Source: Candidatus Roizmanbacteria bacterium RIFCSPLOWO2_01_FULL_40_13 (lineage in GTDB: Bacteria > Patescibacteriota > Microgenomatia > UBA1406 > GWC2-37-13). From it: a stretch of DNA of 64,000 nucleotides. The notes under the pieces are model-generated. The model was not told the origin of the DNA. It searched no databases and saw only the letters and a list, made by a program, of their open reading frames with translations. Made by a program: the position numbers and the translations under genes. Each line of letters starts with the position of its first letter. Within the stretch, counting starts at the first letter, position 1. Of the stretch, positions 15,554 to 20,309 are shown in pieces. The stretch is taken from assembly GCA_001789745.1 (NCBI GenBank), contig MGAN01000004.1, forward strand, positions 64,064 to 128,063, given 5' to 3'.

Positions 15554-16006
15554 ATGGAAAATGCCTCTCCCCCAGAAAACCTCATTCATAATTTAAATAC
15601 GGCGACTGATAATAAATCCTTTACTCTGCCCGTGTTTTTCTCGATTTTAATCATAGTAGTATTGCTTGGTGTGCTATCGGGTTTTTTTCTTGGTTCAAGA
15701 ATTAAAGCCACAAGTCAATCGACTCAACAAACCACATCGGACGAAGTTGAAAAAACAGCTGGAATCGTTGATAAAAAAACCTTTAGCGATAAAGCCGAAG
15801 GAATCTTAAGAGAAGGAGGTATCGATGGAGAGGGCAATTTTCATCTTGAACGGCCGGGAGGAGAATCACAAAATGCCTATCTTACTTCATCCACCGTCGA
15901 TCTGTCCCAATATATAGGCAAAAAAGTGAGGGTCTGGGGTCAAACATTTGCAACCGAAAAGGCCGGCTGGTTAATGGATGTAGGTTTAGTCGAAGTACTC
16001 CAATGA
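15554..16006 (+). CDS. Single-TM protein of unknown function
   Basis: 150 aa, one TM, C-terminal small beta domain (DLSQYIGKKVRVWGQTFATEKAGWLMDVGLVEV). Confidence 0.5.
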   Translation: MENASPPENLIHNLNTATDNKSFTLPVFFSILIIVVLLGVLSGFFLGSRIKATSQSTQQTTSDEVEKTAGIVDKKTFSDKAEGILREGGIDGEGNFHLERPGGESQNAYLTSSTVDLSQYIGKKVRVWGQTFATEKAGWLMDVGLVEVLQ

Positions 16007-16680
16007 TCAAATTCGAAAACGTCAGCAAAAAATTCCCTTTAGGTACTCTTGCTTTATCTGAAGTCTCTTTTGAGATAGAAGATAAGGATTTTGTTTTTTT
16101 CGTGGGACCTTCCGGTGCAGGCAAGACCACCATCCTTAAGCTAATTCTTCACGAATTTAAACCCTCAAACGGCACCATCTTGATTAATGATTTTGACGTC
16201 ACATCCAGAGAATTTTATCAGCTTGAAATGCTGCGTAGAAATATCGGTATGATCTTCCAAGACTTCAAAATTCTATTTGATAAAAATGTCTTTGAGAATA
16301 TTGCTCTGAGTTTAAAGGTATTAAGTGCAAATGATGATCAAATTACCAAAATTGTTAATCAGGCATTAGAATTGGTAGGTCTAACTAAAAAAAAGTTGTC
16401 TTTTCCAGTTCAGCTTTCGGCGGGTGAAATTCAGAGGGTCGCCATTGCTCGAGCTATTGTCGGCGATCGAGAAATCATCTTGGCAGACGAACCAACTGGC
16501 AACCTCGATCCCAAAACCACTTGGGAGATAATGAAAATTTTTAAAAAATTGGAAGGCAAAAAAACGATTCTTATCGCTACTCATAATATTGACATTGTCA
16601 ATAGTTTTCAGAAAAGAGTTCTGGTCTTAAAGCAAGGCAAACTCACTAAAGACCAAAGAAAAGGAGGGTATGAAGTATGA
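16003..16680 (+). CDS. ftsE: Cell division ATP-binding protein FtsE
   Basis: GPSGAGKTTILKLI, LSAGEIQRVAIARAIV, LADEPTGNLD; followed by FtsX. Confidence 0.92.
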   Translation: MIKFENVSKKFPLGTLALSEVSFEIEDKDFVFFVGPSGAGKTTILKLILHEFKPSNGTILINDFDVTSREFYQLEMLRRNIGMIFQDFKILFDKNVFENIALSLKVLSANDDQITKIVNQALELVGLTKKKLSFPVQLSAGEIQRVAIARAIVGDREIILADEPTGNLDPKTTWEIMKIFKKLEGKKTILIATHNIDIVNSFQKRVLVLKQGKLTKDQRKGGYEV

Positions 16681-17573
16681 ACGAGGTATTAACTTCAATT
16701 CGTCGGGCGCCGTATCAGTCTTTGGCTGCTTTTATGATCTTATTTTTTACCCTTTTCCTGTCGACTATAATGTTTGTTTCACTTAGCTTTTTTTACAGTT
16801 TACTTGGTTACGTAGAGACAAGACCGCAAGTAATAGTCTATTTTCAGACCGCAACTGAGAAAAATACGATTTTTAAAGTTCGCGATAAACTCATGAACTC
16901 AGGAAAAGTCGAATCGATTAAATATGTCTCAAAAGACGAAGCCTATCTCATCTATAAAGAGCTCAACAAAGACACTCCGTTACTGCTTGAAATGGTCTCG
17001 TCGGAGAACTTACCAGCTTCGCTTGAGGTTTTTGCCAAAAAACCAGTCTATCTTTCGGAGTTGGCCGAATTTCTCAAAAAAGAGCCGGGGGTCGACGAAG
17101 TTAACTTCCAGAAAGACATCTTAGACCGACTGCTCACTCTAACTAATATATTAAGAAAATCAACTATCGCTTTTTTTCTCTTTCTTATTTTTGTTTCAAT
17201 TCTTGTTCTCGCTACTACCACGCTCTTTAAGATCGCTTTGAAAAAAGATGAAATAGAGCTGTTGAGACTGCTGGGTGCAAGCAAGTTCTATATACAAAAA
17301 CCGTTTCTTATGGAAGCTACACTTTTTGGCGCCGCTGCTTCGTTTTGTTCATTCTTCCTGATCCTAACTCTTGTTCTCACTCTCAAGCCTTTTCTTGAAT
17401 CTTATCTAAAAGACATCCCTCGATTAACCGTTTCGTTTTTATTTACTAATTTAACCGTCTGGCCGATCAACTTGATATTTTTGGCAATTACTTTAGGTCT
17501 GTCTTTACTTTTTGGTCTTACTTTGGCTATCTTCTCAACCCTCCTTGCCACGCAAAAATATTTAAAGATGTGA
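16677..17573 (+). CDS. ftsX: Cell division permease FtsX
   Basis: 4-TM topology with extracytoplasmic domain, adjacent to ftsE. Confidence 0.9.
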   Translation: MNEVLTSIRRAPYQSLAAFMILFFTLFLSTIMFVSLSFFYSLLGYVETRPQVIVYFQTATEKNTIFKVRDKLMNSGKVESIKYVSKDEAYLIYKELNKDTPLLLEMVSSENLPASLEVFAKKPVYLSELAEFLKKEPGVDEVNFQKDILDRLLTLTNILRKSTIAFFLFLIFVSILVLATTTLFKIALKKDEIELLRLLGASKFYIQKPFLMEATLFGAAASFCSFFLILTLVLTLKPFLESYLKDIPRLTVSFLFTNLTVWPINLIFLAITLGLSLLFGLTLAIFSTLLATQKYLKM

Positions 17574-17600
17574 AATCCGGATTTTTCATTAAGTGATGTA

Positions 17601-17801
17601 TACCCATCTTAGAAGATTTTGCAAATTGTTAACTAAAGTTATCTTATAAAATCAACTAAGGAGGGGTATACTTCGATAACTTAAGGTTTGCAACTGAGTT
17701 ACTCAGTATATACCCATCTAATCCGCTTTTTCGCACTGACGAGCTGCAAATCGGAGTAAGATGGGTATATATACTGATTGCGATTTCAATTAATAGAAGT
17801 A
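17601..17801 (+). mobile_element. X-type element interrupted by a nested Y element (17669-17767)
   Basis: TACCCATCTTAGAAG...GAGGGGTA | Y | TATATACTGATTGCG...GAAGTA. Confidence 0.85.
17669..17767 (+). mobile_element. Y-type element nested in X
   Basis: TACTTCGATAACTTAAGG...TAAGATGGGTA, TA duplications at 17667-17668 and 17768-17769. Confidence 0.85.
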
Positions 17802-17821
17802 TATTTAGCTATAATTCAATT

Positions 17822-18994
17822 ATGCTCAAAAAATTCGTCGTAATATTTAACGTCATTATTTATCTAATTCTTGGTCAAGTATCCGTAGCTCAGAACAAGG
17901 CAGATGACGTACAAAAAAAAATCGGGGAATATCAAAAAAAATTAAGTGAGTTAACGTTGCAAAGAAATACACTCTCTTCTGAAATCCAGTACATGAGTCT
18001 TCAGATCAACCTGACTACCCTTAAAATTCAGGAGACGGAAGAAAAAATAATCTCGACGCAAAACGAAGTCGAAATTCTATCCTCAAGAATTGAGGGTCTT
18101 GATAATGCCCTCGATCATCTGACCAAACTGCTGCTCAAGAAAGTGGTAGAAAACTATAAAAACCGCCCGGCTTCTTTTTTTGAATTAATCTTTGATAGTC
18201 AAAACGCCAATGATTTCATCAGCCAAGTCAAATATCTCAAAACCGCCCAAGAAAACAATCAGAAACTTTTGCTTCAGGTGCAAGAAACTAAGTTTAACTT
18301 TGAAGAACAGAAAAGTCTGCGCGAAAAAAAGTCAGTTGAACTTAATGAGCTCGAAGCTCAACTTAACAGTCAAAAGGCATCACTCAATAATCAAAAAGCC
18401 GCCAAACAAAAATTACTTGAAGTGACGCAAAATGATGAAAGAGTCTATCAAAAACTTCTCGAGCGAGCCAAAGCCGAATACGCTGCCATTCAAGGCATTA
18501 TCGCAGGTGCAGGAACCGAGGCTAAACTTCGCGAGGTTAAAAAGGGTGAAAGCATTGCTACGGTGATTTCCGGAGCATCCTGCAATTCATCAGGCGGTCA
18601 CCTTCACTTTATCGTTCAAGAAGGCGGCACCGTGACAAATCCATTCAATTTTCTTAAAGCGGTAGATCATACTAACTGTTCAGGCTCAGGTTGCGGTTCA
18701 TCAGACGGTGACCCTTTCAATCCGTCGGGTGAATGGGACTGGCCCCTTAATTCCCCAATCGAGCTGGAACAAGGCTTTGGCAATACTTGGTCCGTCAGAA
18801 ATTCCTGGGTTGGGAGAATCTATAACTTTCACAATGGAATTGATATCAACGGAACTTCAAACGGCGTCTTTTCGGTTGCTGACGGAGACCTGTATCGAGG
18901 CAGTTATTCAGTAGGATGTGCTCTTCCTTATGTAAAGCTTGTTCACAAAGACTCAAATATCATAACATTTTACCTGCATGTTTACTCCCTTTGA
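17822..18994 (+). CDS. EnvC-like coiled-coil protein with M23/LytM-like C-terminal region
   Basis: Signal peptide, long coiled coil, then SGGHLHFIV and later FHNGIDING / FYLHVYSL. Confidence 0.75.
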   Translation: MLKKFVVIFNVIIYLILGQVSVAQNKADDVQKKIGEYQKKLSELTLQRNTLSSEIQYMSLQINLTTLKIQETEEKIISTQNEVEILSSRIEGLDNALDHLTKLLLKKVVENYKNRPASFFELIFDSQNANDFISQVKYLKTAQENNQKLLLQVQETKFNFEEQKSLREKKSVELNELEAQLNSQKASLNNQKAAKQKLLEVTQNDERVYQKLLERAKAEYAAIQGIIAGAGTEAKLREVKKGESIATVISGASCNSSGGHLHFIVQEGGTVTNPFNFLKAVDHTNCSGSGCGSSDGDPFNPSGEWDWPLNSPIELEQGFGNTWSVRNSWVGRIYNFHNGIDINGTSNGVFSVADGDLYRGSYSVGCALPYVKLVHKDSNIITFYLHVYSL

Positions 18995-19055: not shown

Positions 19056-20309
19056 ATGAGATTTTTCCTTGTTCTTACGATTGCTTTGACATTGCTTTTT
19101 ATATTATCTCCATCTGCTTTTGCCGTGACGACCGCAATTATCGAACCCCCCACAACAATTATTTCTGATCCTTTCGCCTTGAAAATCTCAATTGCTGGCG
19201 CAGCTGCTGGAAGCAATTATCTGCGGATTGACCTTTTCAAACCGTCAACGTCGAACTATTTTGGAGAGACATATAACGGAACCGGTTGGTATTCCGAAAG
19301 TGACTTCAATCAATATTTTCCTCTAATTATTGAAGCCGGGGTCAACTGGTTTGGAGAAATTCAAGGACGCATTGGCAATCCTACTTCTGCTCAATACGAC
19401 GGTCCGGGACCCTATAAATTGAGGATAAGGAGGTACACACCATCCGGAAACTATAATTCAGCGGAGGCAAACAATAATGTTACAGACGTCATTATTAATA
19501 TTGTCATACCAACCATCGCTTATACTCCAAATCAACTACCATCTGACACCCCCACCCCCGGCGAAAGCGAAGAACAACCATTGTCTCCCACTGTCACAAT
19601 CACTCAACAAACAATTAGCAATATTTTTCTTTCCGAAGTCATGCCTGATCCGGATTCTGGTCAGCAGGAATGGATTGAAATATATAATAAAAATAGTGTT
19701 CCCGTAGTTTTGGATGAGTGGTGGATCGATGATTTAGAAAAATCAGGCAGCACTCCCAAAAAGTTCACTCTCTCTTTAGATTCTGGTTCCTATGCGGTAT
19801 TTGAATTGTCAACTTCTGTCTTTAATAATGGCGGCGACAGCGTCAGATTATTGGACTCTGAACAAAATGAAGTCGATAGCTTTGAGTATCAAGCATCCGA
19901 AAAAGGTAAAACTTTAGGCAGAACGTCATTTGATAGCGACATTTTTTGCCAGCAAAGTCCGACTTACGCTGCGGAAAATGGACCCTGTCTGACTCAACCC
20001 GCAACTTCAAACAATATATTAGCTTCAGCAACGCCTGTTGGCGCCGGGACTCGAACGCCGACCGCCGCTGCGGCAGAAATACAATCAATCATCTCTCCCG
20101 TCAAATTTTCGTCAATTAAACAAGCTCAACAACCAAACAAAGCTATCGATCTGGCGACGAACAATCAAGTTCTAGGTGAAAAAACTGATATAAATGCAAA
20201 TAAAGCCTCCCGGGTTGGCGCACTGGTTTCCTCTCTTTCTTTTGCTGCTTTTTTTTATTCAATCCTCTCAATATCCTCAATTATTTTTAAACTGAAAATG
20301 GTGTCGTGA
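19056..20309 (+). CDS. Secreted lamin-tail-domain (LTD) protein with C-terminal TM
   Basis: IFLSEVMPDPDSGQQEWIEIYNKNSVPVVLDEWWIDD...DSVRLLDSEQNEVDSFEY. Confidence 0.75.
   Translation: MRFFLVLTIALTLLFILSPSAFAVTTAIIEPPTTIISDPFALKISIAGAAAGSNYLRIDLFKPSTSNYFGETYNGTGWYSESDFNQYFPLIIEAGVNWFGEIQGRIGNPTSAQYDGPGPYKLRIRRYTPSGNYNSAEANNNVTDVIINIVIPTIAYTPNQLPSDTPTPGESEEQPLSPTVTITQQTISNIFLSEVMPDPDSGQQEWIEIYNKNSVPVVLDEWWIDDLEKSGSTPKKFTLSLDSGSYAVFELSTSVFNNGGDSVRLLDSEQNEVDSFEYQASEKGKTLGRTSFDSDIFCQQSPTYAAENGPCLTQPATSNNILASATPVGAGTRTPTAAAAEIQSIISPVKFSSIKQAQQPNKAIDLATNNQVLGEKTDINANKASRVGALVSSLSFAAFFYSILSISSIIFKLKMVS

Follow-up and report, generated by a model that had tools for sequence, protein, structure and literature searches.

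What kind of FtsEX partner is encoded behind ftsX in the 64,000-nucleotide stretch of a Candidatus Roizmanbacteria genome analysed here (the window), where the motifs of an M23 (LytM/lysostaphin) peptidase domain appear in swapped order? The locus begins with ftsE, the ATP-binding subunit of FtsEX (16003..16680, + strand; TIGR02673 FtsE, 250.9 bits, just below the cut-off of 264.85). It adjoins ftsX, the permease subunit with its extracellular domain (16677..17573, + strand), which matches PF18075 FtsX_ECD (57.7 bits) and PF02687 (38.0 bits), both above cut-off. Directly downstream, an open reading frame at 17822-18994 (+ strand) encodes a protein of 390 aa. Its N-terminus (aa 1-23, 17822..17890) resembles a signal peptide, as judged by eye from a hydrophobic stretch, and is followed by a coiled coil that we presume to bind FtsX (aa ~25-227, 17894..18502; helices 2-47, 51-113 and 129-227 in an AF2 model). 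The coil profile PF24568 CC_PcsB scores 24.9 bits on this protein, just below its cut-off of 27, and the NCBIfam PcsB/EnvC profiles give partial matches far below cut-off. FtsEX partners of the EnvC/PcsB/CwlO/RipC type likewise combine a secreted coiled coil with a hydrolase-type head behind it and are encoded next to ftsEX.

Motif order and the permuted M23 domain

The M23 domain of the 390-aa protein begins with the half that is normally C-terminal. This half B (aa 237-278, 18530..18655, + strand) corresponds to positions 75-114 of a 114-position canonical M23 profile built mostly from domains of other bacteria, and reads VKKGE(SIA)...CNSSGGHLHFIV...NPFNFLK, with HLH at aa 260-262 (18599-18607). 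Next comes the linker (aa 279-302, 18656..18727, + strand) that connects the old C-terminus with the old N-terminus; its length varies from 3 to 39 residues in relatives. Half A, normally N-terminal (aa 303-390, 18728..18991, + strand; profile positions 10-67 of 114), comes last and reads WDWPL...QGFG...FHNGID...VKLVH...YLHVYSL, with HxxxD at 18830-18844 and YLH at 18971-18979. The motif order is thus HxH - HxxxD - YxH, and the collinear M23 order HxxxD - YxH - HxH is absent. These coordinates bear out the claim of the sequence-only reading that the motifs of one M23 domain are present with the HLHF half first, as does the Pfam match: PF01551 scores 32.1 bits on the native protein (cut-off 28.7) in two stretches with the C-terminal part of the profile first, the better stretch placing profile 61-96 at aa 237-274.

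If the domain is circularly permuted, then rotating it should restore a continuous match. We found that the isolated domain in native order scored 34.7 bits in two stretches, whereas the rotated domain scored 40.3 bits in a single, full-length stretch covering 2-96 of the 96 profile positions. The same rotation applied to a relative (L037) raised the score from 57.1 bits in two stretches to 60.0 bits in one. The protein shares HxxxD, YxH, HxH, KKGxxI and NPxxxL with the M23 family (PF01551), and differs from it in its permuted order: the domain is opened after the YxH strand, and its former termini are joined. Because the collinear motif order is absent, we file the protein as a permuted variant of M23 rather than an ordinary member.

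The same HxH-first order was present in 89 sequences after redundancy reduction. In these relatives, roughly the last third of the canonical profile comes first and the first 60% comes last, and all share one cut point (profile ~67/75), which lies in the turn that follows the YxH strand. The C-terminus lies no more than 4 residues from the YxH histidine in 80 of 88 proteins. Because the linker between the old termini shrinks to as few as 3 residues, these sequences are better read as one closed domain than as two unrelated half domains. Whenever a cysteine immediately preceded HLHF, half A contained one as well (52 versus 0; Fisher p = 2e-4, phylogeny ignored), as expected if the two halves pack together. 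The early stop after YxH, likewise pointed out before, is real: it lies at 18992-18994, and orthologs end at the same place. This agreement, together with a gap free of HLH up to the next gene at 19056, excludes the frameshift with a second HLH downstream of 18994 that had been considered at the outset.

The best single piece of evidence for permutation, judged from sequence comparison, is a tandem pair of paralogs. In genome G362 (L196:2706-5139), ftsX is followed first by a permuted and then by a canonical gene. By BLASTP, the coil and half A of the two proteins align straight through at 36% identity, and aa 247-289 of the permuted protein, the HLHF half, match aa 344-386 of the canonical one, behind half A. 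Together, the rotation test, the common cut in 89 relatives, the 3-residue linkers and this pair support the earlier proposal of circular permutation, and their sequences indicate that the 390-aa protein carries a complete M23 domain in permuted order that is not a product of chance. The effect of the permutation can be tested directly on the L196 pair. In L267, too, a permuted and a canonical M23 coiled-coil gene stand in tandem directly behind ftsX; each tandem is a ready-made natural pair for such a comparison.

Distribution and origin of the permuted order

Of the 281 genomes of the class (Microgenomatia), 142, under 35 family labels, gave an end-to-end, collinear match to a profile of the permuted domain, and the permuted order was also found in several Patescibacteria lineages outside the class. 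A survey of M23 proteins of the candidate phyla radiation (CPR), suggested in the sequence-only reading, therefore returned the same order across the class and beyond it. On contigs outside Patescibacteria, nearly all of the matches listed were the size of the HLHF half, with two exceptions that covered more; a sample of these proteins, including both larger matches, was in normal order throughout in a pattern-limited scan. A scan of viral contigs yielded matches the size of the HLHF half and no permuted match. A Pfam search of the window's genome returned, as its sole M23 match, a LysM-like protein in canonical order (G000:C13:20452-20739, L001), and missed the permuted gene; permuted domains can thus be overlooked in genome screens.

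M23 enzymes are among the best-studied cell-wall enzymes. A 2022 review of the family makes no mention of permutation, and in the titles and abstracts listed by searches of open-access papers we found no earlier description of circular permutation in LytM, M23 or lysostaphin domains or in Patescibacteria. Natural circular permutation is described within another peptidoglycan-hydrolase superfamily, NlpC/P60 (YaeF/G6R, LRAT-like), in PMC6403190 (citing Anantharaman and Aravind 2003); those proteins have a papain-like fold unrelated to M23 and are not tied to FtsEX in that paper. A natural permutation in many families of one phylum, at the FtsEX locus, accounts for the truncated look that half-domain annotations can have in these genomes.

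Did the permutation arise once? In a tree of the domain, a branch with SH-aLRT 96 had 61 of 71 permuted rows on the same side. The unconstrained tree requires 4 changes, and a single permuted clade was not rejected (p-AU 0.956) after 5 long or odd rows were dropped; the domain is too short for phylogeny to tell one origin from a few. A more speculative and rather unlikely reading is that the permutation goes back to one or very few events early in Patescibacteria and owes its persistence to a change in control: the FtsX-bound coil would be wired directly to the strand of the catalytic HLH motif instead of acting via a restraining arm, and FtsEX movement could gate the zinc site mechanically. 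On this reading, selection for allosteric control of a division hydrolase would have maintained a natural circular permutation.

FtsEX linkage and interchangeable heads

In the window, as in most loci read, ftsX is immediately followed by the permuted gene. Because seeding on the permuted trait had to be avoided, we seeded a survey on FtsX, found in 139 of 143 genomes of the phylum, and examined the gene that follows it in 80 genomes with nearly all different family labels. Where that gene encoded a coiled-coil protein, it carried one of four heads: permuted M23 in at least 15 genomes (one of them interrupted), canonical M23 in 7, a CHAP-like head in ~13 and a C39-like head in ~10. Permuted M23 was thus the commonest of the four, and the proposed link to ftsEX is supported also in genomes selected by FtsX alone. 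An apparent rule that canonical heads never stand behind ftsX (0 of 10 loci) was discarded as sampling bias, given the 7 found here. When representatives were checked against Pfam, 5 CHAP heads matched, as did 6 C39-like heads (5 above cut-off and 1 below), and one candidate, L274, gave no match. These results describe a modular locus in which permuted M23, normal M23, CHAP and C39 heads swap on one coil; even within the window's own family, sister genomes bear a C39-like head on the same coil.

The C39-like heads (Peptidase_C39, papain-fold) replace M23 in the FtsEX-linked orthologs L019-L023, L025-L030, L283, L287 and others. We know of no C39-type FtsEX partner.

How does this protein compare with characterized FtsEX partners? 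The Gram-positive FtsEX-controlled hydrolases PcsB, CwlO and RipC have the coil fused directly to the hydrolase head, as here, and the weak CC_PcsB and PcsB profile matches point the same way. Those enzymes bear a CHAP or NlpC/P60 cysteine-peptidase head. The head described here is instead a permuted metallopeptidase, even though CHAP or C39-like heads do occur at this locus in Patescibacteria relatives. Like the 390-aa protein, the Escherichia coli murein hydrolase activator EnvC joins a coiled coil to a C-terminal LytM domain; here the partnership with FtsEX is indicated by gene order. In EnvC, a restraining-arm helix (residues 222-278) lies between coil and LytM (PMC7668044), and the LytM domain is in normal order and degenerate, whereas in the 390-aa protein the domain is permuted, the ligands are intact and the model places the coil ~5 residues from the first strand. 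Other Patescibacteria have canonical M23 proteins with a homologous coil and normal motif order, among them L189, L194 and the product of the second L196 gene. Their heads lie ~45 residues behind the coil's YQ anchor; in permuted proteins, ~22 residues separate that anchor from the KKG strand.

Structure prediction, proposed in the sequence-only reading as a check on the zinc site, gave models of uneven confidence. The full-length AF2 model shows long helices followed by a beta domain; at low overall confidence, it ends the coil helix at aa 227 and starts the first strand at aa 232, with no restraining-arm helix between coil and head. Because only ~5 residues then separate coil and strand, the coil may act directly on the HLH strand. 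Confidence was low over aa 255-344 in the full-length model, which rested on 9 aligned sequences; the domain model (also 9 aligned sequences) reached pLDDT 72 and pTM 0.76, with residues 94-113, just before HxxxD, below 50. Foldseek, which aligns in sequence order, found no PDB match to the domain model at E <= 0.001. Given this order-bound comparison and the shallow alignment, the outcome weighs neither for nor against a single zinc site.

Function of the permuted head

The 390-aa protein contains H337, D341, H260, H262 and H386, all invariant in the full-length alignment. A pattern-based count found the catalytic residues in 73 of 89 sequences, an underestimate in which several misses are artefacts of the pattern or clipped contigs. 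We detected no Amidase_3 in the genome (~89% complete). Because the catalytic residues are intact and no Amidase_3 to activate was detected, a direct FtsEX-controlled hydrolase is likelier on this genomic evidence than an EnvC-type activator. The sequence-only reading had left the two roles side by side; the hydrolase now gains ground, and the activator is less favoured.

We conclude that the protein is probably an FtsEX-controlled peptidoglycan hydrolase with a coiled coil and a permuted but complete M23 zinc peptidase head that folds into one domain. By analogy with EnvC and PcsB, the secreted coiled coil would bind the extracellular domain of FtsX. The linker would have fused the old N- and C-termini, with new termini created immediately after the catalytic YxH strand; the coil would therefore continue directly into the strand that leads to the HLH motif. 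Most probably, the two halves come together as an ordinary M23 domain with a single zinc site, in which H337, D341 and H262 would bind zinc and H260 and H386 would be catalytic. During FtsEX cycling, the head would then cleave peptide cross-links at the site of division. A permuted M23 at this locus amounts to a natural experiment on the coupling of FtsEX to its hydrolase.

An alternative is that the permuted LytM head is non-catalytic and, like EnvC, activates another hydrolase when FtsEX fires. EnvC is itself an FtsEX partner with a degenerate LytM domain (PMC7668044, PMC9662197), and some permuted relatives have lost a ligand: L011 has HTP, L235 and L241 lack the HxxxD histidine, and L248 has HLD. 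Not all permuted heads are therefore enzymes, and those lacking a ligand may be activators; one genome, G015, carries a degenerate and an intact copy, the intact one behind ftsX. For the 390-aa protein we nevertheless consider an activator role unlikely: its zinc and catalytic residues are intact and invariant, the genome offers no detected Amidase_3 as a partner, and the alternative heads at the same locus, CHAP and C39, are enzyme-type folds.

The order of the halves could also reflect a domain-swapped dimer, in which half B of one chain completes half A of another. Coiled-coil proteins often dimerise, and the linker, which spans ~24 residues here and reaches 39 in relatives, is long enough; the 3-6-residue linkers in many relatives, however, favour fusion of adjacent termini within one domain and make a swapped dimer quite improbable. 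That the gene is an assembly error, a frameshift or a pseudogene remnant of tandem M23 domains is the least credible explanation, with a negligible chance of being right. The window's genome is indeed a draft assembly of 21 contigs, but the same order recurs in >140 separately assembled genomes, nearly all without stops, no second HLH precedes the next gene, and the catalytic residues are conserved; the orthologs already refute such an artefact. The single-chain, FtsEX-controlled hydrolase thus remains our preferred reading.

Several further features of these loci were observed. In G015, HTP replaces HLH in the degenerate copy (L011, on C9), whose upstream sequence, as far as read, contains no ftsX, and the intact copy behind ftsX is L040, on C11; by their sequences, the two are likely an enzyme and pseudoenzyme pair. 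In the window, the hydrolase gene is followed by a gene for a secreted Lamin-tail-domain protein (19056-20309). Similar-looking secreted proteins occupy this position in many related loci and are possibly linked to the same step. The gap between ftsX and the hydrolase gene (17574-17821) contains inverted and direct copies of TATACCCATCTTA. Because GTATACCCATCTNA has 7 exact occurrences in the 1.04-Mb genome and 0 when read backwards, this motif looks like a dispersed intergenic repeat.
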